Made by a program: the position numbers and the translations under genes. A DNA stretch of 64,000 nt from Clostridia bacterium. Lineage in GTDB: Bacteria > Bacillota > Clostridia > Oscillospirales > Acutalibacteraceae. Below the pieces are notes generated by a model. That model had not been told where the DNA came from and made no database searches. It was given only the letters and a program-made list of their open reading frames with translations. This document shows, piece by piece, positions 12,331 to 28,704 of this stretch. The DNA lies in contig JAFQCT010000012.1 of the NCBI GenBank assembly GCA_017399405.1, positions 248,001-312,000 of the forward strand, written 5' to 3'. The first letter of the stretch is position 1; every line of letters starts with the position of its first letter.

Positions 12331-12355
12331 AAAGCCACTCGGAGTGAGTGGCTTT
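12331..12355 (-). terminator. Terminator of the surface-protein locus
   Basis: AAAGCCACTC/GAGTGGCTTT stem, followed on the minus strand by TTTTATGTG. It closes the 10-kb minus-strand locus, 19 bases after its last stop codon. Confidence 0.8.
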
Positions 12356-12373: not shown

Positions 12374-13414
12374 TTATTCAACAATAATTTCACGGTCATC
12401 TTCTTCGTCCTTTTTACGCTTAAAGATAAGAAGAATAAAGAAGAACAAACTTAACACCATCATTGAGCCCATTACAAGTGGACTTTCAAAAAACTCAACA
12501 AATGTGTCAGGAATAGGGATAATTGGTGTTGGCTTAACAGGTCCGCCAATTGTAATTATAACACCATCTTTATCTTCATCCTTTGGGTCTGTTTCAGGCT
12601 TTGAATCAGGGTCGTCACCACTTGGTGTATCGTTAGGATTACCATCTGGGTCCTCAAAATCAGGATTATCAGGGTCACCCGGGTCTGTGTCGTCTGGGTC
12701 TATGTCAGGTTTACCATCATTATTGTTATCAAGTATATGGAAATCGAGATATATTTTGTCAGCGTCAGTAGGAACTACTATTACTTGTGTACCGTCAGAT
12801 GCAGTTGTAAGAGTTACCTCATCAACATCTGCTCTTACAATTACAAAAGATGTGTTTGCAAGCACTTCGCCATCTTTTGAAATCTGCACAAGGTGTTTAC
12901 CGTCAGCAATATCTTCAACAGAATATCTGCCGTCTGCGTTAGTTTTTGCTGTTACGCTTCCAAAATCGAAACTTAAAGTTGCGTCTTTAAGTTCTGTATC
13001 TCCAAAATAAACAGTACCCTCAATATCTACCTTGCCACATTTATCATTTGCATCGTCTGAACATTTTTCAAATGCAAATTCAACAAGAATGTCTGTATTG
13101 ATGTCTGTAATTTTAAGATTTCCGTCTGCATACTGTTCTGTTACATCAGTGTTGTTTACTTTAATGGTATCAAGGTGATAACCATTTTTGAAAACTGCAC
13201 CAAGGTCGATTTCACCAAATCTGTTAATCTTAAATTGTGTACCATCAGGGCAAAGTTTACCGTTTACAAGTACATAACCACCCTCGTTATATACAACGGT
13301 TACTGTATGTTCATCAGGAACAACAGTTGAAATAGTAGTGTTACTTGCAAAGGTTGGAATAGCCATAACAAGCACCATAACAAGTGTCATAATGATACTT
13401 ATTGCTTTTTTCAA
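12374..13414 (-). CDS. C-terminally membrane-anchored surface protein
   Basis: 346 residues, last gene of the surface-protein locus. Signal peptide MKKAISIIMTLVMVLVMAIPTFA. Residues about 30-125 resemble a Listeria-Bacteroides-type repeat (HTVTVVYNEGGYVLVNGK). Residues about 128-200 resemble a carboxypeptidase regulatory-like beta domain (VDIEGTVYFGDTELKDATLS..TNADGRYSVEDIADGKH). A long Asp/Pro-rich linker (DPDDTDPGDPDNPD) spans a wall-length distance to a C-terminal helix (VMGSMMVLSLFFFILLIF) and charged tail KRKKDEEDDREIIVE. There is no LPxTG. It could anchor products of the neighbouring array, but that role is inferred only from position. Confidence 0.82.
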   Translation of the reverse strand: MKKAISIIMTLVMVLVMAIPTFASNTTISTVVPDEHTVTVVYNEGGYVLVNGKLCPDGTQFKINRFGEIDLGAVFKNGYHLDTIKVNNTDVTEQYADGNLKITDINTDILVEFAFEKCSDDANDKCGKVDIEGTVYFGDTELKDATLSFDFGSVTAKTNADGRYSVEDIADGKHLVQISKDGEVLANTSFVIVRADVDEVTLTTASDGTQVIVVPTDADKIYLDFHILDNNNDGKPDIDPDDTDPGDPDNPDFEDPDGNPNDTPSGDDPDSKPETDPKDEDKDGVIITIGGPVKPTPIIPIPDTFVEFFESPLVMGSMMVLSLFFFILLIFKRKKDEEDDREIIVE

Positions 13415-13451
13415 TGAAATCCACCTCCTTAATTAGTTTGAAAAGAAATAA

Positions 13452-13964
13452 TTATGGAGTAGTTGTAGGAGCTTCGTAAGAAACTGTATATGTGATAGTG
13501 CCTGTGTATGTTGCAACAGGAGCAGCATCGAAACCTGCAACTGTAATTGTTGCGTCTGTACCACCAACATCAGATGCTTTTGCACCGTTATTTACGCCTG
13601 TAAATACTGTTTCGCCTGCACCTGTAAGTGTGTAAGTTAATTTCTTGTCTGTGCCTTCAGCTTCCATAATACCATTATTTGTATCATCAGTGTCAGTATC
13701 ATAAGCAACGCCAACAGTAACTGAAGCGCCAACGAGAAGCTGTGATGTAACTGTATAGCCTACATTATAAGCTGTTGTTTCATCATCCCAAGCAACTGAA
13801 ATTGTTGCAGGAATTTCAACTGTATATGAAGTATCAGTTGATTCATTGAAAGTTGTTTCAACATTAACCTTGTTCTCGCCAAGAACTGCTGTTTCTGCGA
13901 ATGCAGGAACACAGATTGCCATCATCATAACAAGAGCTAATGCAATAGAAATAATCTTTTTCAT
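13452..13964 (-). CDS. Small secreted protein 1 of tandem IPA-W family
   Basis: 170 residues with signal peptide ending CVPAFA. The core shows the family pattern: SYTVEIPATISVAWDD, YTVTSQLLVGASVTVGV, KLTYTLTG, and a last strand pair ATYTGTITYTVSYEAP. The Trp normally found before the final strands (W..A.I..Y) is replaced here by FDAAPVATY, and the usual TFTAE ending by TYTVSY. This is the most divergent copy, and the only one with a TTTP tail. All-beta fold expected. No anchor, no LPxTG, no cysteine in the mature part. Function unknown. Confidence 0.85.
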   Translation of the reverse strand: MKKIISIALALVMMMAICVPAFAETAVLGENKVNVETTFNESTDTSYTVEIPATISVAWDDETTAYNVGYTVTSQLLVGASVTVGVAYDTDTDDTNNGIMEAEGTDKKLTYTLTGAGETVFTGVNNGAKASDVGGTDATITVAGFDAAPVATYTGTITYTVSYEAPTTTP

Positions 13965-13991
13965 AATTGTTTACTCCTTTGAGTATAAAAA

Positions 13992-14477
13992 TTAAACGAT
14001 TTCTGCTGTGAATGTAAGTGTATCTGTGTAGTTATCAATTGCAGCTGATTTCCAATCATCAAGAGCAACTTTAACTGTTACCTTTGCAGTGTCATCATAA
14101 ACTGCTGATGGTGCTGTAAATGTTGCGTTATCAAGTGTGTAAGCGAGTTCGCCACCATTACTTGTCATTTTGTAAGCTGAGTCAGCGTCAGCAACTGTAA
14201 CTTTAACAGCTTCGCCTGTTTTAAGCTGGCTTGCAACTGTGTATTCAATGTCTTTTGATTCTGTTTCCCATGCAAGTGTCTGAGTTGCAGGAATTGTAAC
14301 TGTGTACCAAGCAACTTCTGTATCACCGATACCGTCGCCATCTGTATCTTTCTTTGTGTCTGTATTGATGATTGTGTCGTTACCTGCGTTTGAGCCACCT
14401 GTAACAGCAGCAAAAGCAGGAACGCAAATTGCCATCATCATAACGAGTGCCATAGCAATTGCTAAAATCTTTTTCAT
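13992..14477 (-). CDS. Small secreted protein 2 of tandem IPA-W family
   Basis: 161 residues. Signal peptide MKKILAIAMALVMMMAICVPAFA. Before the core it has a DTDGDGIGD loop, a calcium-binding pattern like thrombospondin type-3 or dockerin loops. The core is WYTVTIPATQTLAW, YTVASQLKTGEAVKVTV, LAYTLDN and DWKSAAIDNYTDTLTFTAEIV. It is 26 bases from its neighbours on each side, and each copy has its own Shine-Dalgarno. Likely a secreted structural or adhesive subunit; not a recognised pilin (no E-box or sorting signal). Confidence 0.85.
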   Translation of the reverse strand: MKKILAIAMALVMMMAICVPAFAAVTGGSNAGNDTIINTDTKKDTDGDGIGDTEVAWYTVTIPATQTLAWETESKDIEYTVASQLKTGEAVKVTVADADSAYKMTSNGGELAYTLDNATFTAPSAVYDDTAKVTVKVALDDWKSAAIDNYTDTLTFTAEIV

Positions 14478-14503
14478 TTTATTTACCTCTTTTTAATTTG
14501 ATG

Positions 14504-14968
14504 TTAAATATTTGTAAGCTCTGCACTAAATGTTAATGTTCCTACATAATTGTCAATTGAAGCTTTATCCCAATTAGCAGTAGGAATTTGTACCACTACG
14601 CTTGATTTTTCTGCGTTTTCAGAAAGAATAACAGATTTTGTTGTAGTGTACTCTGTTGTACCACTCTTTAATGAATATTCAAGGAATGCAGTGTTTGCAG
14701 CATTTTTCATTTTACCGTCAGCATCAGCATTAACAGTAACTTTTACACCTTTACCTGTTGCCAACTGACTATAAACTGAATATTCAACTGATTTTTCTGT
14801 TTGTCCCCAAGTAATTGTAGCAGTTGCAGGAATTGTAACTGTATATGATGCACCAACTGTTGAGCCGTCTACTCTTACAGGAGTGCTGCCAACATATTCG
14901 GCAAATACGGGAATACAAATTGTGAACATTAACACAAAAGCAAGAACTAATGAAAGTACTTTTTTCAT
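14504..14968 (-). CDS. Small secreted protein 3 of tandem IPA-W family
   Basis: 154 residues. Signal peptide MKKVLSLVLAFVLMFTICIPVFA, then core ASYTVTIPATATITWG, YSVYSQLATGKGVKVTV, LEYSLKSG and NWDKASIDNYVGTLTFSAEL. It lacks the calcium-type loop. The N-terminal segment before the core is the shortest among copies 1-6 (about 20 residues), so the minimal unit of the family is roughly 110 residues. Function unknown; same inferred role as its neighbours. Confidence 0.85.
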   Translation of the reverse strand: MKKVLSLVLAFVLMFTICIPVFAEYVGSTPVRVDGSTVGASYTVTIPATATITWGQTEKSVEYSVYSQLATGKGVKVTVNADADGKMKNAANTAFLEYSLKSGTTEYTTTKSVILSENAEKSSVVVQIPTANWDKASIDNYVGTLTFSAELTNI

Positions 14969-14990
14969 ATTAAGCCCTCATTTCAAACAA

Positions 14991-15458
14991 TTAAGCGTCA
15001 GCAAGTTCTGCTGTAAATGTAATTGTTCCTTCATAAGTTGCGATTGAAGCAGCTGCCCATTCGCTTGCATCAATTGTAAGATTAAAAGTATGAGCTTCGT
15101 TGTTTACAACTGCACTATTTGCGATACCTGTTGTAGCATCTGCAACTGCAAATTCAATTGTTTCATTTGCAGCATTTGTAAGGTCTTTTGCTTTTGCAAG
15201 TGTAACTTTAACGCGTTTATCTGTCTGAACCTGACTTGTAATTTTGTATTCGCCTGCTTTTGTTGTGTCGCCCCAGATAAGGTCAACTGATGCAGGGATT
15301 TCTACTGAATATGTGCCGTCGCCCTTGTCGGTAATACCGTCAACTAAAACTGTTGAGTTACCTGACTGTGTGTTAACATCAAGTGTTGCTGCGAATGCAG
15401 GAACCATTACAGCCATCATCATTACAAGAGCAAGAACTACTGAAATAACTTTTTTCAT
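14991..15458 (-). CDS. Small secreted protein 4 of tandem IPA-W family
   Basis: 155 residues. Signal peptide MKKVISVVLALVMMMAVMVPAFA. Core: TYSVEIPASVDLIWGD, YKITSQVQTDKRVKVTL, and EWAAASIATYEGTITFTAELADA. The residues just after cleavage (LDVNTQSGNSTVLVD) match those of copy 5 (LNATTQSGTATVQTD), so copies 4 and 5 are likely the most recent duplicates. Unknown function. Confidence 0.85.
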   Translation of the reverse strand: MKKVISVVLALVMMMAVMVPAFAATLDVNTQSGNSTVLVDGITDKGDGTYSVEIPASVDLIWGDTTKAGEYKITSQVQTDKRVKVTLAKAKDLTNAANETIEFAVADATTGIANSAVVNNEAHTFNLTIDASEWAAASIATYEGTITFTAELADA

Positions 15459-15483
15459 AATTCGTATCTCCTAACTGTTAAAA

Positions 15484-15960
15484 TTAAGCGTCAACAACTG
15501 TTGATGTAAATGTAAGTGTATCGCTATATGTGTCAATAGCTGCAGCAGCCCAAACTGCTGAATCAACATTGATGCTGTAATTAAATGTAGCGTCTGTAAC
15601 AACAGGACCTGTTGTTTTACCTGTAGTTGTTCCACCAAGAGTGTAAGCAAGAGTAGCGTTTGAAGCGTTTAACATATTAAGTCCGTCACCTGTATCAGCA
15701 ACTACTACCTGAATAGCTTTACCTGTTCTGAGGTTAGAACTAACTTTGTATTCAAAATTTGTTGTTGCTGTACTCCAAACAATATTCATTGTTGCAGGGT
15801 AAGTAACTGTGTAAGTACCGTCACCTGTAATTGCAGATGTATCTGTCTGAACTGTTGCAGTACCTGACTGTGTTGTAGCATTAAGTTCAGCTGCAAATGC
15901 AGGAACCATAATTGCCATCATCATAACAAGTGCCATTACTAAAGAAATAACTTTTTTCAT
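15484..15960 (-). CDS. Small secreted protein 5 of tandem IPA-W family
   Basis: 158 residues. Signal peptide MKKVISLVMALVMMMAIMVPAFA. Core: TYTVTYPATMNIVWST (Tyr for the usual Ile before PA), YKVSSNLRTGKAIQVVV, LAYTLGG and VWAAAAIDTYSDTLTFTSTVVDA. Close to copy 4 in its mature N-terminus. No anchor or sorting motif. Unknown function. Confidence 0.85.
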   Translation of the reverse strand: MKKVISLVMALVMMMAIMVPAFAAELNATTQSGTATVQTDTSAITGDGTYTVTYPATMNIVWSTATTNFEYKVSSNLRTGKAIQVVVADTGDGLNMLNASNATLAYTLGGTTTGKTTGPVVTDATFNYSINVDSAVWAAAAIDTYSDTLTFTSTVVDA

Positions 15961-15993
15961 AATTTATATCTCCTTTAAGAATTATTTATAAAA

Positions 15994-16494
15994 TTATACT
16001 CTTTCGATTTCTGCTGTATATGTGAGAATATCGCTGTATTCTTCAACAACTGCTGAATTCCAATCATCTGCAGAAATTGCAACTGTAACTGCCTTTGTTG
16101 CTGCAGGATAGATTGTAGGAACATCTGCTGTGAAAGCAACACCTTCGCCTGCAAGTGTATAAGGAATTTCATAAACACCATCATCAGTTTTCATAACTCC
16201 AGCACCAGCAACTGTAACCTTAACTTTGCCATCTCTCTTAAGGTGTGATTCAACTGTGTATGAAACATCAGTTTCTTCTGTTCCCCAAGGGATTGTTGTG
16301 TCAGCAGGAATTGTAACTGTATATTCTTCTGCGTCTGTGTCACCGATACCGTCACCGTCAGTATCCTTTAATGTTGATGTGTCAATAACTACATCTGCAC
16401 TGTCAGGATTTGCATTAAGCTCAACTGCAAATGCAGGAACCATTACAGCCATCATCATAACAAGTGCCATTGCGAATGATAAAACTTTTTTCAT
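15994..16494 (-). CDS. Small secreted protein 6 of tandem IPA-W family
   Basis: 166 residues. Signal peptide MKKVLSFAMALVMMMAVMVPAFA. Like copy 2 it has the acidic loop KDTDGDGIGD directly before the core. Core: EYTVTIPADTTIPWG, YTVESHLKRDGKVKVTV, IPYTLAGE and DWNSAVVEEYSDILTYTAEIERV. The shared loop suggests calcium-dependent folding or contacts in two of the seven copies. Unknown function. Confidence 0.85.
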   Translation of the reverse strand: MKKVLSFAMALVMMMAVMVPAFAVELNANPDSADVVIDTSTLKDTDGDGIGDTDAEEYTVTIPADTTIPWGTEETDVSYTVESHLKRDGKVKVTVAGAGVMKTDDGVYEIPYTLAGEGVAFTADVPTIYPAATKAVTVAISADDWNSAVVEEYSDILTYTAEIERV

Positions 16495-16529
16495 AATATA
16501 TTACTCCTTTTCAAGATTAAAATTACTAT

Positions 16530-16979
16530 TTATACTGCGTCGGTATATTCAGCAGTGAATGTTAAAATGTCACTGTGTTTACCGCTTGCAGCATGAAGCC
16601 ATTCATCATCTTCAACCTCTACTGAAAGAGTGAAGCTTTCACCATAATCACCAGGGAAGAAAGAGATGTCGTCACTTAATAAACTATATGCGATAGTTTT
16701 CTCACCATCTTTTTCGTTTACAAGTTTGAACTCATTTTGTGAAGAAACTGAAACCTTAACCATTTTGCCAGGTTCAATAAGCATTTTTGTTGCTGTTACT
16801 TCACCAATGTCCATAGCAGTTGTCTGCCATGGGATTTCAATGTCTGCAGGATAAGTCAACTCGTATTCTGCACGGTCAGCACTTGTGGAAATCTCCATTG
16901 ACTGACTACCTGCGAGCACTGGTGTAATGCAAAGTATAAGCATTACAATTGCTAATCCTACTGAAAAGAATTTTTTCAT
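16530..16979 (-). CDS. Small secreted protein 7 of tandem IPA-W family (first in transcription)
   Basis: 149 residues, nearest the giant gene and the most divergent in its signal peptide (MKKFFSVGLAIVMLILCITPVLA). The core keeps YELTYPADIEIPWQ, MVKVSVSSQNEFKL, IAYSLLSD, a Trp in EVEDDEWLHAASGKHSD, and the ending ILTFTAEYTDAV. YTV..SQL is replaced by GEVTATKMLIEPGK. Its divergence and position between the giant and the closer copies suggest an older member or a capping role. Function unknown. Confidence 0.83.
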   Translation of the reverse strand: MKKFFSVGLAIVMLILCITPVLAGSQSMEISTSADRAEYELTYPADIEIPWQTTAMDIGEVTATKMLIEPGKMVKVSVSSQNEFKLVNEKDGEKTIAYSLLSDDISFFPGDYGESFTLSVEVEDDEWLHAASGKHSDILTFTAEYTDAV

Positions 16980-17000
16980 TTTCTGTCATCTCCTCCCTTA

Positions 17001-20000
17001 TTAACTTGTCACTTCGACTGTATAAGTCAACTGTGTACTGTAATCACCAACAGGAGCATTATCCCAAGCGGTTTGCTCAATCTTAATACTTGGTGCATCT
17101 GTCGGCTTTGTGCCTGCTGCTACATCGTCTGCAAACTCTGTAGCCTTAAAGTTTTCTGTTGTGAATTCAATAGAATGTGTACCTGTTGAATCAAGAAGTT
17201 TTCCTTCTTCAGCACCTGAATCCTCAACACTTACTGAAAGTTTTTTGTTACCAAGTGATGCTTCAACTGAATATGAAACATCAACATTATCAGTTGTGTC
17301 CCAATCCACTTGAACTTTTGCAGGGATTGTAACTGTATAAACTGTAGCAAGTGTACCTGTAAATGTAACAGGCAACTCCAATGTTGCAATCGGAACAAGG
17401 TCTTCACCTGTAAGTCCCGCATCAATATCTGCAGTTTCATAAACATTAAAGGTAATTGAGCCTTCATAAACTGCATCTTTAGGAACAGCACTTGCAATAG
17501 TTGAGTCAACTGCTATCTGAAGCGGAATTCTTGAGAACACCTCATCAGGATATAGGTTATCATAAGTTCCAAATGTCAACGGAGTATCTGCTGTAAGGCC
17601 TTCAACAGTGAATGAATTAAGGTCAGCAAATGTTGTACCCGAAGTTTGTGTAAGTTTTAAGTCTGAAACCGCTTGAAGTGTAACTGTTGTGTCAAGCAAC
17701 GCCGCAATATACGACAAATCAACATAAGCAGTATCTTTCATTGACTCTTCATCGTTATTATTAAGTGTAACCATAGCCAATGAACTACCATCTGTTTCAG
17801 CGTCCATAATTGAAATATCACTTACAGAGAACAATCTAATAATTGCCTGTTCAAGTTCATAAAGTTCTTCAACATTGTAATATGCCGGAAGGAATGCGTT
17901 ATACTCTTCAAGAATATCTTTTACATATTGAAGCTCATCTGCTGAAAAACGGACTCTATTCTCGATATGTTCGCTTGCAATATCATAAACAGTCTGCAAC
18001 TTATCACGGAAAGCAAGAATACCACCGTTGATTGTTTCGCCATCTATTGTGTAAGTTTCAGTATTTTTAAGGAAATAAGTGAAACCACGAGAAGTGTTCT
18101 CAAGCTGTGAATAGATAGAACCATCTTCCATCAAACTCTTTGAATAGAACTGTAATGGTTCATATTTGTTTTGCTTGAAGTCTTCAACAGTATCTCGTCC
18201 CGCAATGCTGATAAAGTTACCAATCTTGTATGGAGTAGAATCTGCAACACTGCTATCTACATCTTCAAGTACGCCATCACCATCATAGTCATACTTTACA
18301 GTATAAAGACCTGTAATTTCGGACAAGAAACCTGGTTTCTCTTCACCTTCACCCACTATTACTTCAGTTCTAATGCTTTCGAGAGTCTGGGTCATTCGCA
18401 TTGCCATATTATAGGCATTTAAGAACTGTGCTTTTACCGTTGGGTCAAGGTCTGTATTTTTTTGAGTTACAGTATATCTACCATAGCTCTCGTTATACTG
18501 TTTAACAATCTCCTCAGCAATTTCCTTAGTAATTCCCAATGTATCGTAATTTATATTACCATTGGTAAATCCAGGATAAGGAATATCTGTTTCACCTGTT
18601 ACAACTGTTGTTTTTATTGCATCAGGAAGTCCTGATACAAAATCTGTAAGCTCTGCAACAGTTTTGTCAGGTTGAGGAATTGTTGAAGTGTCTGTCGCAT
18701 AACCTGCGTAAGAATCAAGAACCTTTTTCGCAACCTTTACTTTAGACTGTTGGAAAAGAGAAAGTGCGTTAAACTGTGCAAGTGCTTCGTTATATTTTGC
18801 AGTGATTGTTGAAACATCATAAGGGTCAATTGCCTTAACTGCATCTTCAAACTGCTTTGCAGGAAGTGATTTTGCATCAAATACTTCAGCATATGAAGAA
18901 TGTGAAACACCTGAATAAATTGACGGGTCATAAGTAAAGCCTACATTATCGATTGTAAATGACTTTCCGTCAAGTGAATCTGCGTTTTTACCACCGATAC
19001 AGAACTGAATTGCATAAATATTGTCAAGCCATATTGAATTACCATCAAGCTTTTGCTCATTTATAATACTATTCTTAACCTTAATGTGATAAAGCGGAAT
19101 CATAATATATCCCTTATATCCATCAAGGCTCAATGGGTCACCCCAACCTGTATTCTGCTCAGATGTAAAGCACCACTGACTTGTTGTATGGTTAGTTTCC
19201 CATTCGCCTGTGACAGGGTTAAGAATAAAATATCTCCAATGCTTTTGCTTATATGCGTCTTCATTTTCAAGACCTTCCGTAATATAACCCAAGGAAGAGC
19301 CCATATTAGGACGAGCTTTTATTGGTGTACCCTCTTCATCCTTTGTGTAAACATTAGTAGTAAAGTAGAAACTTGAAAGTTCTGTAAAGTCAACATATAA
19401 AATAAGTGACAAACCGATTGTCCCTTCGCCTGTTGCGTTCTCTGTTGACAATTTTCCAAGACTGTCTTTACTTGTAATATTATTCTGGAATGAAGCCCAA
19501 TCTGTTGCATCTTCACCATGTCTTGTAAAAGTTACTGTGTGGTATACACCATCCTGATTATCCGTTGTAAACGAACTGTCAATATTCATTGTTGCAGCGT
19601 GAGTATTAAGATAACCATCGTCTGTAATTTCAGCAGTAGCAGCATCATAATGAAGTCTGTTATCCATTACTTCTTGTGAATAATCACTGTCAGTTGGTGA
19701 ATAACCATAGTCACCCTCATTTGTGATGTTTACACTGCCATTTGTTGTGTAAGTTGTAAAGCCCTTTGTATGTCTCCAGCCTTGTGCCATTGTGTAAACT
19801 CCACCACCCGGGTTATGAGTACCGGCAGAAAGACCATTCACACTTGTAAAGCCTGTAGAATATGCATTCTTGTTTTCTGCAATCTGCCAAGCCTCAGTCC
19901 CAAGTGCCATATTTTCGAAATCGTTATATACAATAAACGGATAATTAGCAAGCTGTTGACCAACAACAAATTCGTTGTCGTCTGAGCTGTCAAGATGTGC

Positions 20001-22205
20001 TATATATTTAAGAATTCTCTCCTCTTCAGTCTTACCTAACATTTCAAGCTGACCGAAATTCAAAAGAGCGTATGCTTTCCAGATTTTAATAATCTCTTTA
20101 CGGAGTTCATCGCTTACGATTGTTATATTTTCAGGTGCAGGAAGTTTTTCCATAGCACGAATAATAACCGGGACAAGCTCATCTTTATCGGCGTTAGCAG
20201 TAGTTAATGTTCCCGCTGCTAAGCAAGCTTCATAAGCTTCCCATGCAACAGCCCAAGAGTCTCTGTGAAGCTGTTGTGCTGCCCAAGCAAGACCAACACC
20301 TATTTTACCATCGTCAGCGTCGTTCTTTGACAAATCAAGGAAATCTGTACTCTTGCCTTTTGATTCAAACGCTTGTCTGTAAGCTTCAACCAATGCAAGA
20401 ATGTACTCAATTTCACGATAGTCGGACCAGTCAGGCTCTTCAATATACTTATCAATTTCATCAAAAATAATTCTTGAAATTTCAAGCTCTTCATTATAAT
20501 AAGTTGTGATGTTATTACCTGTGTTAGCAACACCATCAAGAGAGTTTTCTGAGTAAGCTCCACCATCTGTACGATAGAAGAAAATATTATCAATATAAAA
20601 GCTGTTCTGAAGACTATCGTCACTGCAACCCTCAATTGAGAAACCGGCATTATAAATATCTTCAATAGCTTTAAGACCTGCTTCCCTATTCATAACAGTT
20701 GTGCCACTAACATAAGCACGGTCAGTTGAAGCATTACCTGTTGTTACAGAAGTTTTTGCCGATGCGGGGTCCAAAGGCATTGCAAGCATATAACCGATTT
20801 TTGAATAATCAAGATTACCCTCTGATACATCTTCTTCAATATGGGTAATACCATTATCATAATTCCAATAGTAGGTATGCTTTGTTCCCCAGCCAAAAAT
20901 GCCCGAACTTGTTTTGTATGCTCTGCGATGTATAAGTAATGCATCTGATATACTTGTACCTGCATTATCAACAATCACCTTTTGTGAAAAGGTCATTCCA
21001 CCCATCCAAGCATTTGCTTTATCTGCACTAACGCTGTTTCCGTCAAGTATACTTGTCTCCTGACCAAAATCCTGGTTACTAATATCAACATAAGTTGCTG
21101 TTTCAGAACACATAAATTCTAACGGAATACGAACATAACCTTTGAAGTTTCCAAGGTCAACAGTACCATTGTCGTTGAGCATTACCTTATCCCAGCCACC
21201 GTCTTCACGCTGAACATAAACATAAGGGTCTGCACCAGTATATGTTGGAGCTGCTGTACCTTTTGTTGAATAAACAATAGGACTTACTCGCTGATATGTA
21301 TTAATCGTTCCATCCTTCCATTCAACCCACATCTTCTCGTTTGTACGAAGTCTGAATGAAACACCTTTAAGTTCAACATCAGAAAGGTCCATCCAGTACC
21401 ACATTTCTGTAGCACCCTTAAAGTCCCATGTCTGACGAGAAAATGATGTATCGAAAGTTTGTGTACCTGTTGGCTTATCGTTCATAATAAAACGAAGTGC
21501 TGATGTGTCACCAATATTATCTGTAAGGTCATCTGTACCTGTTTCAGCCGCAGCACCCATATAAAGAAGCTGACCACCTGTAGCAACACCATCATCAGTA
21601 CCTTTTTCAAAAGTCATAATTTCACGAACAGCTGTATCACTTGTTGAAAGATAATGGAATTTTTCAGAATCAAACTTAACTGTAGGTACATTTGTAACTG
21701 TTGTGTAAATTGATTGTGAAAACCAGTTTTCACTATCAACCGCAGTAATTGTAATACTATATCTGTATTTCTCAAAATTGAGCTTACCAATATCACTTGC
21801 ATTAAAGGTTGCAGATGTTCCCGTTACTTTGATAGTATCAATAACAGTTTCGCTATGCACCTTATCCTTCTCGCCCAAATTAATGAGTTCAAGAATATAG
21901 AAAGCAATAGGGACGTCATCTCTTGCAGCTTTTTCAGCATCTGTAATCACACCATCTGCAATTTCAGCCTTGTACTCATCATAAGAAGCACCCAACGAAG
22001 CCGCAGGGAATGTAACTTGAATATTCCCATCATCGTCAACCCACGCGTCTGCACCGCTATTAACAGCACTTTCATCAAAATATGGTGCAGGGTCATACTC
22101 ACTTGATGTAACTGCCGACATCATCATAAATGGTATCGATGTGATTATCATTACCATAGCGAGTACAATTGCTATGCACTTTTTGGAAGATAATTTTTTC
22201 TTCAT
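17001..22205 (-). CDS. Giant secreted multidomain protein (1734 aa) ending in an IPA-W domain
   Basis: Signal peptide MKKKLSSKKCIAIVLAMVMIITSIPFMMMSAV. Residues about 40-175 are Fn3-like (YSITITAVDSENWFS). Two large similar modules, about 175-550 and 765-1130, each contain KGYvrIPL and end in IDNIFFY or IDNVGFTYD, the pattern of jelly-roll carbohydrate-binding domains. Helical stretches follow each (about 560-760 and 1140-1510). The last about 115 residues (VYTVTIPAKVQVDW..VEASLGNKKLSVSV..AWDNAPVGDYSTQLTYTVEV) are the same domain as the seven small proteins downstream. No catalytic motif or anchor is visible. A secreted scaffold or adhesin whose final domain could assemble with the small subunits is the simplest reading, but is inference. 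Confidence 0.85.
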   Translation of the reverse strand: MKKKLSSKKCIAIVLAMVMIITSIPFMMMSAVTSSEYDPAPYFDESAVNSGADAWVDDDGNIQVTFPAASLGASYDEYKAEIADGVITDAEKAARDDVPIAFYILELINLGEKDKVHSETVIDTIKVTGTSATFNASDIGKLNFEKYRYSITITAVDSENWFSQSIYTTVTNVPTVKFDSEKFHYLSTSDTAVREIMTFEKGTDDGVATGGQLLYMGAAAETGTDDLTDNIGDTSALRFIMNDKPTGTQTFDTSFSRQTWDFKGATEMWYWMDLSDVELKGVSFRLRTNEKMWVEWKDGTINTYQRVSPIVYSTKGTAAPTYTGADPYVYVQREDGGWDKVMLNDNGTVDLGNFKGYVRIPLEFMCSETATYVDISNQDFGQETSILDGNSVSADKANAWMGGMTFSQKVIVDNAGTSISDALLIHRRAYKTSSGIFGWGTKHTYYWNYDNGITHIEEDVSEGNLDYSKIGYMLAMPLDPASAKTSVTTGNASTDRAYVSGTTVMNREAGLKAIEDIYNAGFSIEGCSDDSLQNSFYIDNIFFYRTDGGAYSENSLDGVANTGNNITTYYNEELEISRIIFDEIDKYIEEPDWSDYREIEYILALVEAYRQAFESKGKSTDFLDLSKNDADDGKIGVGLAWAAQQLHRDSWAVAWEAYEACLAAGTLTTANADKDELVPVIIRAMEKLPAPENITIVSDELRKEIIKIWKAYALLNFGQLEMLGKTEEERILKYIAHLDSSDDNEFVVGQQLANYPFIVYNDFENMALGTEAWQIAENKNAYSTGFTSVNGLSAGTHNPGGGVYTMAQGWRHTKGFTTYTTNGSVNITNEGDYGYSPTDSDYSQEVMDNRLHYDAATAEITDDGYLNTHAATMNIDSSFTTDNQDGVYHTVTFTRHGEDATDWASFQNNITSKDSLGKLSTENATGEGTIGLSLILYVDFTELSSFYFTTNVYTKDEEGTPIKARPNMGSSLGYITEGLENEDAYKQKHWRYFILNPVTGEWETNHTTSQWCFTSEQNTGWGDPLSLDGYKGYIMIPLYHIKVKNSIINEQKLDGNSIWLDNIYAIQFCIGGKNADSLDGKSFTIDNVGFTYDPSIYSGVSHSSYAEVFDAKSLPAKQFEDAVKAIDPYDVSTITAKYNEALAQFNALSLFQQSKVKVAKKVLDSYAGYATDTSTIPQPDKTVAELTDFVSGLPDAIKTTVVTGETDIPYPGFTNGNINYDTLGITKEIAEEIVKQYNESYGRYTVTQKNTDLDPTVKAQFLNAYNMAMRMTQTLESIRTEVIVGEGEEKPGFLSEITGLYTVKYDYDGDGVLEDVDSSVADSTPYKIGNFISIAGRDTVEDFKQNKYEPLQFYSKSLMEDGSIYSQLENTSRGFTYFLKNTETYTIDGETINGGILAFRDKLQTVYDIASEHIENRVRFSADELQYVKDILEEYNAFLPAYYNVEELYELEQAIIRLFSVSDISIMDAETDGSSLAMVTLNNNDEESMKDTAYVDLSYIAALLDTTVTLQAVSDLKLTQTSGTTFADLNSFTVEGLTADTPLTFGTYDNLYPDEVFSRIPLQIAVDSTIASAVPKDAVYEGSITFNVYETADIDAGLTGEDLVPIATLELPVTFTGTLATVYTVTIPAKVQVDWDTTDNVDVSYSVEASLGNKKLSVSVEDSGAEEGKLLDSTGTHSIEFTTENFKATEFADDVAAGTKPTDAPSIKIEQTAWDNAPVGDYSTQLTYTVEVTS

Positions 22206-22243
22206 ACTCTTCTTCCTTTCTGTTTCTAATCTATATAAAGTAA

Positions 22244-23062
22244 TTATTTTACAATCAAATCTGTTTTAACAACAAAGTTGTTGAGAGGTGTTCTTGCCTG
22301 GTCAAATGAATATGGCTGTTGATGAACAATTGCCTTATATTCACCTGCTGGGAGTGAACGGGAAATGTTAAATCTTGAAACTGAATAACCCGGCTGAACA
22401 AGTCCTGACTGATAAAGTGTTTCGTCACTTTCATCAATAATACCGTTTTCGTTATTGTCAAGATAAATTGTGAATACTACAAAACAAATATCTTTATTCT
22501 TTTCTGAATTTGAGAGAATGAAGTTCTGCTCAACCTGATTTGCTTTGAAGTTAATTTGGGCAATACCATTCATAGTAACATTCTTTGAACCCATATCTTC
22601 AACTTTTTCAGGTAAATCAAGTTCACCCAAGCCCTGTTGCTGATTAACATCAAGAAGATTTGGTGCTGTTGTGGTAGGCTCTTCATCACCGCCACCAATC
22701 AACATTCCAAGTCCTGCAATAAGACCAACAAGAGCAACAAGCCCTAATACTACCAAAACTATTATTGCTAAAAGATTATCTTTTTTAACTGCAATAAATG
22801 AACCCGATTCAAGTTCAATATAACCAATTGTTTTATATCTTGCAGAAGATGTTGGCTTATAAACGATTTCTTCAATATCGTTTGAAACGATTGTGCCGAT
22901 TTCGTCTTTACCACAAGCCAATTGACCAACAACACGAATACCGCCATCGGGGTAAAGAGCTTTCATTTCTTTTACAGTATAGCAACCTATTTCAAAGCCC
23001 GTATCCTTGTTGTAATATGACTCTAAATAATCGTTGCCTTGTTTAATATTAAATACTGCCAA
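22244..23062 (-). CDS. Membrane protein with cytoplasmic and extracellular domains, first gene of the surface locus
   Basis: 272 residues from a TTG start at 23062 (Shine-Dalgarno TAGGAGGG, 7 bases upstream). Residues 1-97 are soluble and would be cytoplasmic. One transmembrane helix (about 98-123, LLAIIVLVVLGLVALVGLIAGLGML) and a GGGDEEPTTTAPN linker lead to an extracellular beta domain ending DDETLYQSGLVQPGYSVSRF..LPAGEYKAIVHQQPYS..NFVVKTDLIVK. DNNENGIIDES in it is a possible calcium loop. The 'LYqSgLv.PG..i......L..GeY' pattern is one I have seen in other Clostridia surface proteins without a named function. Leads the operon with the giant protein. Confidence 0.8.
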   Translation of the reverse strand: MAVFNIKQGNDYLESYYNKDTGFEIGCYTVKEMKALYPDGGIRVVGQLACGKDEIGTIVSNDIEEIVYKPTSSARYKTIGYIELESGSFIAVKKDNLLAIIVLVVLGLVALVGLIAGLGMLIGGGDEEPTTTAPNLLDVNQQQGLGELDLPEKVEDMGSKNVTMNGIAQINFKANQVEQNFILSNSEKNKDICFVVFTIYLDNNENGIIDESDETLYQSGLVQPGYSVSRFNISRSLPAGEYKAIVHQQPYSFDQARTPLNNFVVKTDLIVK

Positions 23063-23121: not shown

Positions 23122-23151
23122 ATTTTACCTTAACACAGCACTACTTGTCAA
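23122..23151 (-). promoter_or_regulatory. Promoter of the surface-protein locus
   Basis: Minus strand TTGACA (23151-23146), 18-base spacer, TAAAAT (23127-23122). It is the only strong promoter seen upstream of the ten genes; intergenic gaps inside the locus are 20-40 bases. Confidence 0.7.
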
Positions 23152-23252: not shown

Positions 23253-24146
23253 TTATTTTTTCACAAGTTCTGTAAGAGATGTTGCAAGACCTGCGAGCCC
23301 CTGAATTTCTGATGGAATAATAATTTTTGTAGCCTGACCATCAGCTGCTTTTTCAAATGACTCAAGTGCTTTGATACTGATAAACTCTTTACTTGGATTT
23401 ACCTTGTTAATCATATCAATACCCGCTGCAGTTGCTTCCTGAATTTTAAGGATTGCTGCTGCCTCACCTTCTGCTTCACGGATTTTTGACTCTTTAATAG
23501 CGTCAGCACGAAGAATAGCAGATTCTTTTTCACCTTCTGCAACAAGGATTGCTGCTTTCTTTTCACCTTCTGCCTGCAAAATCTTTTCACGGCGTTCGCG
23601 TTCAGCTTTCATCTGTTTTTCCATTGAATCCTGAATTTCTTTTGGAGGCATAATGTTTTTAAGTTCAACACGGTTAATCTTGATACCCCAAGCGTCCGTT
23701 GCTTCGTCAAGAACTGTTGTGATTTTTGAATTGATTACATCTCTTGAGGTAAGAGTTGCATCAAGTTCCATATCACCAATAATGTTACGAAGTGTTGTAG
23801 CTGTAAGGTTTTCAATAGCCATCATTGGTCTTTCAACGCCATAAGTGAAAAGTTTTGGGTCGATAATTCTATAGAAAACAACTGTATCAATTGACATTGT
23901 AACATTATCTTTTGTAATAACAGGCTGTGGTGGGAAATCCACAACTGCTTCTTTAAGGCTTACTCTTTTTGCTACTCTGTCAATAATAGGGATTTTTACA
24001 TGAATACCTGTTTCCCAAGTGGTGTGATATGCACCAAGTCTTTCAATAACATAAGCATTTGCCTGTGGTACGATAATTACATTTTTGATGATAATTGCAA
24101 TTACAAGTACTGCGATGATAATAAAAGGTGTAATAATAAATTCCAT
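23253..24146 (-). CDS. SPFH/Band-7 (stomatin-like) membrane protein
   Basis: 297 residues. A short N-terminal membrane segment (FIITPFIIIAVLVIAIIIKNVIIV) is followed by the band-7 domain (QANAYVIERLGAYHTTWETGIHVKIPIIDRV..FPPQPVITKDNVTMSID) and an Ala/Glu-rich coiled coil (AERERREKILQAEGEKKAAIL). Stomatin/QmcA-type proteins oligomerise as membrane-domain scaffolds and usually partner an NfeD protein. Here the NfeD gene lies 23 bases upstream in the same operon. Probable role: organising membrane microdomains or regulating membrane proteases. Confidence 0.94.
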   Translation of the reverse strand: MEFIITPFIIIAVLVIAIIIKNVIIVPQANAYVIERLGAYHTTWETGIHVKIPIIDRVAKRVSLKEAVVDFPPQPVITKDNVTMSIDTVVFYRIIDPKLFTYGVERPMMAIENLTATTLRNIIGDMELDATLTSRDVINSKITTVLDEATDAWGIKINRVELKNIMPPKEIQDSMEKQMKAERERREKILQAEGEKKAAILVAEGEKESAILRADAIKESKIREAEGEAAAILKIQEATAAGIDMINKVNPSKEFISIKALESFEKAADGQATKIIIPSEIQGLAGLATSLTELVKK

Positions 24147-24169
24147 AATTTTTCTCCTTTAATAAATAA

Positions 24170-24607
24170 TTATTTAGTTATAACGAGCGTTGTTCCCTCA
24201 ACGCTTATTATTTTAACTGATTGGTCTTTTTCTATTTTTTCGCCATTCTGGGTTTTGGCTTTCCAATAAATGTCGCCTACAAGCACTTTTCCGTTAAGTT
24301 CATCTGTATCTTCAGTAGTTTTACCGTATTTCCCGATAAGTTTACTGTCTGCACTTACTTCGTCTTTTTCTTTTTTTATGTATTTCTTGTAAACCTTACG
24401 AGAAATAAACATAGCAATTATACTGAGTATCACAAAAACGAGTGCTTGAACAAGAAAACTGTCAATCACCAAAGACACAAGACAAGTAAGAAGTGCCGCA
24501 GGTACAAACCATATTGACACAAGTGCCGCTGTTGAAAGTTCAATTATAAGGGCTACAACGCCCACAGCGACCCACAATGCCCACAAATTTTCAAATAAAA
24601 ACTCCAA
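24170..24607 (-). CDS. NfeD-family membrane protein
   Basis: 145 residues: transmembrane helices in the first about 75 (LWALWVAVGVVALIIELS.., FLVQALVFVILSIIAMFI) and a C-terminal OB-fold domain (LIGKYGKTTEDTDELNGKVLVGDIYWKAK). NfeD proteins work with SPFH proteins, matching its neighbour. The start is taken as TTG at 24607, 8 bases after AGGAG. The in-frame TTG at 24628 would overlap the preceding gene and sit ahead of the Shine-Dalgarno. Short NfeD1b type, without the ClpP-like protease domain. Confidence 0.9.
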   Translation of the reverse strand: MEFLFENLWALWVAVGVVALIIELSTAALVSIWFVPAALLTCLVSLVIDSFLVQALVFVILSIIAMFISRKVYKKYIKKEKDEVSADSKLIGKYGKTTEDTDELNGKVLVGDIYWKAKTQNGEKIEKDQSVKIISVEGTTLVITK

Positions 24608-24620
24608 CTCTTTCACTCCT

Positions 24621-24956
24621 TTACTCAATTACATATTTGTAAAGTGCGTCCATAACAGTATCTTCAAAACTGCCTGATGCACCCCAGTCAAACCTTAAAA
24701 GGCCCTGACCGCCACCACCACTTATTACATGGATATGCGTCTTTCCGCGAAGGTTATCTGCAACAACTGTCAATGTAAGGCGATTACCTGCACGGTAATA
24801 ATGCTTTTCATAAACTGAAACTGTAAGTTTTGTGCCGTTACCCATATCGCTTACATATTCATCAATTTTTTGACCTGTAATTGACCCGTTTATAACCGCT
24901 TTATCAATAAGGTCAATAGCCTCATCAGGTGAAACTGATACATTAAAATCCGTCAT
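24621..24956 (-). CDS. DUF6054-like small protein
   Basis: 111 residues, soluble, alpha-beta: NVSVSPDEAIDLIDKAVINGSI, then LTVSVYEKHYYRAGNRLTLTVVADN and a glycine-rich turn ISGGGGQGLLRFDWGASGSFEDTV. The pattern fits what I recall of the DUF6054 family in Clostridia, whose role is unknown; this assignment is from memory. It sits between DUF1836 and NfeD in one operon, 13 bases from each, suggesting a membrane-stress or envelope link. Confidence 0.7.
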   Translation of the reverse strand: MTDFNVSVSPDEAIDLIDKAVINGSITGQKIDEYVSDMGNGTKLTVSVYEKHYYRAGNRLTLTVVADNLRGKTHIHVISGGGGQGLLRFDWGASGSFEDTVMDALYKYVIE

Positions 24957-27183: not shown

Positions 27184-28704
27184 TTATTTCTTACTCTTCT
27201 TTTCTTTTTCAGAGCCATAGCCATAACCGTATCCGTAACCATATCCATAGCCATAACCGTAGCCATACCCATAACCTTTTCTGTGTCTTCTTGAAGTTCT
27301 GATAAACTTGTTAGCAACACCTGTTTCAGTACCGTTATAGATACAACCGATAACTTCTTTACCTGATGCACCCATATCTTCAATTGTTTTCTTGATACGA
27401 CGGATTGGTGAATGGTCGTTACGAACAACAAGCATACAAGCGTCTGCATACTGTGTTACGATTGCTGCGTCAGCAACAAGACCTGCAGGAGGAGTATCGA
27501 TAATAACATAGTCGAACTCATTTTTAACTGCTTCAATAATTTCTTGTGCTTCGTCAGATGCAAGAAGTTCAGCTGAATCGCTAACTGGCTGACTTGAAAT
27601 GAGAAGGAATAAGTTGAACTTTTCAAAATACTTAATTGATTCGCTAAGTGACTTTTCACCACGGATAACGCCTGCAAGACCTGTTTCGTTAGCCGCAGAA
27701 ACACCTAAAGTCTTATAAACTGATGGTTTACGAAGGTCAGCGTCAATAAGCAATACTGATTTACCATTCTGTGCAAGTGCCAAAGCAGTATTTGTTGAAA
27801 TTGTTGTTTTACCTTCATCTTCAGATGCACTTGTTAATGTGAATACTTTATAATTCTGGCGTTTAGCAACATTTTCAATTTTAGTACGAATCAGCTTAAA
27901 CGCCTCAATGAACATAAAGCCTGTTTTTCTGTCAGTAATAAGAATATTCTGTTTTTCCGCATCTTTGCCGGACTTTTTAACGCTGATAATTGAGCCGAGA
28001 ATTTTGCTACCGAGTTTCTTTGTAATATCATCAGATGCTTTAACTGTATCTTTAATGAAGATAATAAGGCAGATTGCAAGAACAACTACACCTGCACCGA
28101 ATACAAAACCTAACAATGTGTAAAGAAGTGTTGTGTTGTTACCGTTAGGAGCTGTTGGCTTTACAGGTGGGTCATAGTTTTTAGCATAAGTACTTGGGTA
28201 TGCTTCTTCAGTAATTGTTCTAAAATTATTTACATAACTTGTAGCAACTGCGTAAGAAACATCAGGGTCAGAAGATGTAATTGAAATAGCAATAATTGAT
28301 GTGTCTTCAACAAGTGTTGAACTTACCATTCTCTTAACATCTGCACCTGTAAGGGCTTTACCGTTTACTTTGTAACCGCTGTTTTCAGCAACAAGGTCCA
28401 TAAGACTGCTTGACTCTGTCATAATATACAAGTAGTTTCTTGCAAGCTGGCTACTTGCACTGATGTCAGATGCTGACTGACCTGCTGTAACTGTATTTTC
28501 GTTTTTGTTATCAACAGTAAAACGCATTGTGCAAGTGTATGATGGCACATAGTTAAGTTTTGCTACGCCAAAACCAATAGCCGCACATACTACTGCAGCA
28601 ATCAAAATTAACCACCATTTCTGAATAACGCGAACAGCATATTGAGTTATAGTCTGAAGGTCAATACCCTCATCAACATTGTTCATTTTTGAATTGTATT
28701 CCAT
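27184..28704 (-). CDS. Wzz/BY-kinase fusion (CpsC-CpsD type) with (GY)10 tail
   Basis: 506 residues. The chain-length-determinant part (1-225) has transmembrane helices at about 31-47 and 193-217. The cytoplasmic kinase part has Walker A SASEDEGKTT (292-301), Walker A' LLIDADLRKPS (318-328) and Walker B VIIDTPP. Bacterial tyrosine kinases autophosphorylate a C-terminal tyrosine cluster; here it is ten uninterrupted Gly-Tyr pairs (477-496) followed by a lysine-rich end. Such proteins control export and length of capsule or exopolysaccharide. No glycosyltransferase or phosphatase is adjacent, which is unusual for this family. It has its own promoter and terminator. Confidence 0.93.
   Translation of the reverse strand: MEYNSKMNNVDEGIDLQTITQYAVRVIQKWWLILIAAVVCAAIGFGVAKLNYVPSYTCTMRFTVDNKNENTVTAGQSASDISASSQLARNYLYIMTESSSLMDLVAENSGYKVNGKALTGADVKRMVSSTLVEDTSIIAISITSSDPDVSYAVATSYVNNFRTITEEAYPSTYAKNYDPPVKPTAPNGNNTTLLYTLLGFVFGAGVVVLAICLIIFIKDTVKASDDITKKLGSKILGSIISVKKSGKDAEKQNILITDRKTGFMFIEAFKLIRTKIENVAKRQNYKVFTLTSASEDEGKTTISTNTALALAQNGKSVLLIDADLRKPSVYKTLGVSAANETGLAGVIRGEKSLSESIKYFEKFNLFLLISSQPVSDSAELLASDEAQEIIEAVKNEFDYVIIDTPPAGLVADAAIVTQYADACMLVVRNDHSPIRRIKKTIEDMGASGKEVIGCIYNGTETGVANKFIRTSRRHRKGYGYGYGYGYGYGYGYGYGYGSEKEKKSKK

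Follow-up and report, generated by a model that had tools for sequence, protein, structure and literature searches.

The 64,000-nucleotide stretch of Clostridia bacterium DNA analysed here (contig JAFQCT010000012.1, positions 248,001 to 312,000; hereafter the window) contains a ten-gene surface locus which we interpret, with a probability of about 0.7, as encoding a non-covalent adhesive donor-strand pilus of a single-membrane Clostridium, made without an usher or an outer membrane. Clostridia of this order have a single membrane. Ordered multi-subunit donor-strand pili with a tip adhesin are a textbook trait of Gram-negative pathogens. The locus represents a genuinely conserved apparatus with position-specific subunits; strand exchange between the subunits, fibre direction, the function of a membrane protein and the ligand are inferred.

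All ten open reading frames lie on the minus strand and are read from position 23062 to 12374. They code for a membrane protein of 272 amino acids (22244–23062), a giant protein of 1734 residues (17001–22205), seven small secreted paralogues and an anchored protein of 346 residues (12374–13414). In gene order, the paralogues comprise 149 (16530–16979, “first” type), 166 (15994–16494, “second” type), 158 (15484–15960), 155 (14991–15458), 154 (14504–14968), 161 (13992–14477) and 170 residues (13452–13964, “last” type). An earlier note, made from the letters alone, had described seven tandem secreted proteins of 149–170 residues with a common core, framed by a membrane protein first and a C-terminally anchored protein last; the reading frames bear out both statements, and alignment confirms the core. 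The residues Y, PA, W, V, A and T are invariant in all seven paralogues and at the C-terminal end of the giant, and identities to the last-placed paralogue range from 21 to 39%. The source genome (1.96 Mb, 97.5% complete) holds a single such locus: a profile search recovered all eight domain copies (E values of 8.6e-60 to 6.9e-44), and four further matches had E values of 0.016 to 0.1, two of them covering the signal peptide only.

The solved structures nearest to the predicted 166-residue paralogue are chaperone-usher pilins, with CsuE and CsuA/B closest, and pilins come out on top of the fold comparison, aligned so that the N-terminal segment of the paralogue is left over. The view that the locus cannot be matched to pili therefore fails at the level of the fold, and one distant relative also passes the threshold of the archaic pilin family SCPU (PF05229). 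By sequence, none of the ten proteins gave a Pfam or NCBIfam match above cut-off; the nearest Pfam family of the anchored protein was CarboxypepD_reg, at 21.1 of the required 32.3 bits. SCPU was not matched by any window protein; within the genus it matched three of 103 members (best E value 2.9e-4, below the Pfam cut-off), and outside it one class-level relative scored marginally above cut-off (22.7 versus 22.4 bits). Searches of the PDB by sequence yielded weak matches for alignment A1 (best E value 0.018), nothing lower than 0.59 for A2, and mainly signal peptides of antibody constructs for A4, which comprised 96 of the 98 paralogues from the named loci described below (a 226-residue paralogue of L054 and a truncated one of L061 were excluded).

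Ahead of the first core strand, the mature paralogues carry a stretch in which small hydrophobic residues and threonine alternate, and which in the 166-residue paralogue corresponds to a putative donor strand (16366–16404), assigned from model and motif. A pattern devised after the paralogues had been inspected, [VILMATQ]x[VIL]x[TS]x[TSV] within the first 30 mature residues, occurred in 72 of 119 paralogues (12% in shuffled sequences) and in 17 of 23 anchored proteins (shuffles, 15%), including that of the window (13316–13342). It was found in none of ten giants (shuffles, 2%), these being the ten of 19 whose reading frame starts with M, one of which (L039) is cut at a contig end. Because the pattern was written from the paralogues, the anchored proteins provide the fairer test. 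A separate, similar test of the N-terminus gave a high score for 39% of 103 sequences, compared to 6% in shuffles. Comparison of the N-terminal profiles of paralogues and anchored proteins was weak (probability 13.8%), and the model of a single subunit shows the N-terminal segment with confidence, yet not as a strand. Two paralogues (15994–16494 and 13992–14477) contain a DxDGDG loop, resembling calcium-binding loops, just before the first core strand; such a loop may make the connection from donor strand to domain more rigid.

The paralogues might instead be complete single-domain binders of a glycan or protein, held near the membrane via the anchored protein, with the giant as a separate adhesin and no fibre at all. 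The Ig-like fold, which often acts singly, and the confident modelling of the N-terminal segment in the absence of a partner are in keeping with this explanation. It would, however, predict neither position-specific subunit types nor an N-terminal motif common to pilins and anchored proteins and absent from the N-termini of giants, nor a fold comparison led by pilins whose alignment skips the N-terminal segment, and we consider it unlikely.

The proposed donor-strand pilus would have the giant as its tip, a role assigned from reading frame, neighbourhood and models. The earlier note had it end in one copy of the core domain after two carbohydrate-binding-like modules; the modules stand, and the single copy has to be corrected to two pilin-like domains. 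The second module (residues ~745–1100; 18906–19973) models as a CBM11-like jelly roll, and the first (residues ~176–580; 20466–21680) is related to it over 86 columns (hhalign probability 96.6%, cut profiles). The last domain (17004–17342) is a sequence homologue of the paralogues (hhalign 99.7%) and has no further strand at its end. The penultimate domain (residues ~1458–1616 in the AlphaFold model; 17358–17834) is akin to pilins by fold only (hhalign 8.5%). A strand at residues 1607–1616 (17358–17387) sits where the donor strand of the last domain would be, and the pilin alignments reach model residue 879; we read this strand as completing the penultimate domain. In the predicted model, the two C-terminal domains match CsuE, CfaE and FimH over both domains, so that the giant appears to have the layout of a tip adhesin, with a receptor-binding domain followed by a C-terminal pilin domain. 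Other parts of the model resemble parts of SbsC and SbsB. When five giants were compared with Pfam, nothing, including cohesin and dockerin, scored above cut-off. The CBM11-like modules suggest β-glucan or similar glycans as ligand.

The order of the subunits was examined in a tree comprising 113 paralogues, taken from 18 loci including the window (the split or partial arrays L033, L049 and L050 were omitted), labelled as first, second, middle or last by gene position. The labels required 15 changes on the tree, as compared to 49 in shuffles, none of 200 of which was as low. The first type forms one side of a branch with a support of 99 and is a single clade in all 18 loci; the second and last types required six and eight changes, respectively (16.9 when shuffled), on a tree built from few columns, with many weak forks and 37 of 110 left open. 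Subunit identity therefore seems to follow position as a tendency, strictly for the first type only, a pattern that an ordered fibre would produce and interchangeable copies would not. Of the arrangements proposed in the earlier note, a fibre or layer of small subunits with the giant as tip or scaffold, the fibre with the giant as tip is thus favoured by position-specific types, pilin fold, two-domain tip layout and conserved neighbourhood, although the proposal as a whole is only partly supported.

Among 37 genomes of the genus, the source genome included, 19 contain a strong array (best E value below 1e-30) and one (G014) a fragment; the remaining 17, including the near-complete genomes G021, G023 and G034, gave weak matches or none. 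From these genomes 20 locus stretches were taken. Of the 18 other loci in the genus, 13 carry the complete set of membrane protein, giant, paralogues and anchored protein on one stretch; L039, L043 and L046 are cut by contig ends, one locus is divided between two contigs (L033 with L049), and L041 (genome G017) has no anchored-protein gene in its stretch and a different gene in its place after an array of ten paralogues. The 327-residue product encoded there (L041:15238–16221) is presumably a glycoside hydrolase. The 17 unsplit arrays comprise 5–10 paralogues each, and since the flanking genes vary between genome groups, the cassette appears to be kept while its genomic place is not.

An alignment search with the membrane protein yielded 22 named loci, labelled as uncultured Clostridia, Eubacteriales, Oscillospiraceae, Ruminococcus or bacterium, some of them from yak or water-deer cecum. 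Downstream of the membrane protein gene, 20 of these loci encode the giant and 18 encode paralogues. The two loci without giant end 0.1 kb (L063) and 1.2 kb (L060) past the membrane protein gene; in L060 no giant was seen in the 1.2 kb before the contig end (10760–11975), which contain repeated, non-coding-looking sequence. In L061, L065 and L067, the giant starts 0.7–1.1 kb downstream of the membrane protein gene. The giant, used as a single-sequence query against the genome contigs, found no relative. The pilin profile used for neighbourhood checks in named loci, order and class includes the signal peptide, which favours weak matches.

In the order, at least 104 of 394 genomes matched the pilin profile at E ≤ 1e-5, many of them by the signal peptide only. 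Matches with E ≤ 1e-9 over at least 90 of 162 positions were counted as real; among the matches listed, 14 genomes outside the genus pass (G054, G067, G084, G131, G164, G172, G184, G217, G284, G297, G313, G314, G368 and G378), the pilin-like gene of G131 having an internal stop codon. Genome G355 was dropped, as the profile match there extended no further than residue 65. Of 18 stretches chosen because they carry the pilin domain in genera of the order other than this one, 15 also have a member of the membrane protein family encoded in the same locus. In the class, this family was found in 12 of 291 genomes, at 14 places in seven families; besides the window, ten of these places have a neighbouring pilin-like gene or domain and L133 a weak one, and none was seen in L126 and L131. 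A single pilin-like gene beside the membrane protein gene is the common form among the loci seen outside the genus and occurs in several families of Clostridia (L120–L133, L098–L115), and this recurrent adjacency makes the pair look like the minimal unit, a two-gene system. Longer tip-like proteins with several pilins and an anchored protein also occur there (L098 and L100). The tip-like protein of L098 (5863–9954; 1363 residues) seems, by eye, to have other repeated units instead of CBM modules and a pilin-like end which was not called by the pilin profile; it may be that tips are swapped and the end domain is retained. The earlier concern that the genes might be scattered singly in relatives does not apply to the genus, whereas beyond it one pilin-like gene with a membrane protein gene is common.

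This two-gene form would also suit a system in which each paralogue formed homopolymers in a matrix, with the membrane protein as a TapA-like starter and no single ordered pilus. A Gram-positive precedent has been published in TasA/TapA of Bacillus subtilis, a donor-strand fibre whose assembly is helped by a partner protein (PMC9674648, PMC10151520). Against such filaments, the first, second and last types tend to hold their places, the giant has the two-domain tip layout, and the camelysin family was matched by none of the ten window proteins in Pfam or NCBIfam; it was also absent from the 25 of 67 matched families listed for 103 relatives. We regard this explanation as improbable, somewhat more so than that of single binders.

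The membrane protein, a putative assembly factor, consists of an N-terminal domain, one hydrophobic helix and a conserved outer domain with the signature PG..I..I.L...L..G.Y; the family had no Pfam match where tested, and hhalign showed no sequence relation of the outer domain to the pilins or to the penultimate domain of the giant. The recurrence of the family beside pilin-like genes makes a role in assembly likely. At its C-terminus the anchored protein, the putative base subunit, has a hydrophobic helix, a charged tail and a degenerate sorting-signal-like IPDTF (12377–12514, by eye). Anchor ends within the genus are degenerate, unlike those of other lineages (L098, L099, L100, L106), which end in sorting-signal-like TG motifs such as SPQTGD and TPQTGD. 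These ends would also suit a covalent sortase-built pilus or a sortase-displayed layer, as would the two sortase matches in the source genome, which make attachment of the base to the wall possible, and the occurrence of a sortase above cut-off in 33 of the 37 genomes searched. The translations of paralogues and giant, however, end at the last strand with neither sorting signal nor C-terminal helix, and no sortase gene was seen by eye among the reading frames of the locus, sortases being encoded elsewhere in the genomes. A sortase could still attach the base; a covalently built shaft or layer seems very improbable.

In the donor-strand pilus, each small secreted protein would be a pilin, a β-sandwich without its last strand, whose N-terminal strand would complete the adjacent subunit on the tip side. 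At the tip would sit the giant with its carbohydrate-binding modules foremost, its open C-terminal pilin domain taking the strand of the first pilin; the groove of the first pilin would take the strand of the second, and so on down to the last. The pilins would be stacked in gene order, with fixed first and second types, a variable middle and the last type. The last pilin would accept the strand of the anchored protein, which would end the fibre at the cell via a membrane or wall anchor, and the membrane protein would most likely hold or order subunits leaving the Sec pathway. Slightly short of even odds may be given to a more specific history, that of a single-membrane counterpart to the chaperone-usher pathway, in which an ordered, non-covalent carbohydrate-binding pilus of archaic (SCPU/Csu) pilin ancestry, with a membrane-tethered assembly factor and a dedicated base, was elaborated from a minimal pair of membrane factor and pilin. 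If this history holds, donor-strand pili need neither an usher nor an outer membrane and may predate both.

The nine intergenic gaps of the locus measure 21–38 nucleotides each, and most starts are preceded by purines resembling ribosome-binding sites. A promoter-like site (−35/−10, 11 of 12 consensus matches; 23122–23151, minus strand) precedes the membrane protein gene, and a terminator-like hairpin with a T run lies past the last gene (12331–12355, minus strand), so that sites for the postulated single promoter and terminator are present at both ends. Scan-wide totals are scarcely above chance (57 promoter-like sites versus 51 expected, 12 terminator-like sites versus 8.5), and transcription as one unit therefore rests on position and short gaps. 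Genes for SPFH/band-7-like and NfeD-like proteins are located directly upstream (23253–24628); they are kept in L040, and other genomes have other neighbours. Further upstream (27184–28704) lies a gene whose product resembles BY-kinase capsule regulators and has a long tail of GY repeats.

If our interpretation is true, the origin of chaperone-usher pilins would become a testable question, and hardly cultured gut Clostridia would probably be able to hold on to glycans of plants or the host by such a fibre. Should the membrane protein prove to replace both usher and chaperone, the locus would represent a new class of pilus.

As stated in the earlier note, the locus does not match S-layer, WxL or cellulosome systems: neither SLH, CWB2 or WxL domains (Pfam, NCBIfam) nor cohesins or dockerins (Pfam) were found among the matches of the window proteins, and the resemblance to SbsC and SbsB is partial and confined to the model of the giant. 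Sortase-built pili have tip, shaft and base proteins encoded in one operon, an arrangement shared by the locus along with a base protein bearing a sorting-signal-like end; unlike theirs, its shaft subunits have no sorting signals. F-ENA endospore appendages, DUF4183 trimers on spores of Gram-positive bacteria including Clostridia (PMC11952670), are Gram-positive fibres bearing N-terminal hook peptides; the Pfam search of the window proteins did not yield DUF4183. No Gram-positive pilus of this make-up appeared in the titles or abstract openings of the open-access literature searched, and none is named in the available parts of a review of adhesive appendages (PMC7616799) or of the F-ENA paper. 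With TasA/TapA, the locus would have in common a donor-strand fibre in a Gram-positive bacterium and a putative partner protein aiding assembly; it differs in its many different subunits and in encoding tip adhesin and base in the same operon.

In chaperone-usher pili, the subunit order is believed to be determined by usher and chaperone. The outer-membrane usher (PF00577) and the PapD-like periplasmic chaperone (PF00345) were each found in none of 20 genomes, the source genome included, with positive Escherichia coli controls; the outer-membrane marker Omp85 (PF01103) was likewise found in none of the 20 (control positive in 7 of 14). By its defining parts the locus is therefore not a chaperone-usher system, though it may work like one, and the same parts without an usher would reveal an alternative route by which such a fibre can be ordered and anchored. 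The closest architecture is that of the archaic chaperone-usher Csu pili, which have a CsuA/B rod, the adaptors CsuA and CsuB and the two-domain tip CsuE (PMC9452303). Both have the fold, predicted here and nearest to CsuE and CsuA/B, an N-terminal segment before the domain, adaptor-like position-specific subunits and a two-domain tip adhesin, which the model places here at the C-terminus of the giant. Unlike Csu, the locus occurs in Clostridia, its tip has CBM11-like modules and helical parts, and it adds a putative base protein of its own and a partner tethered to the membrane.
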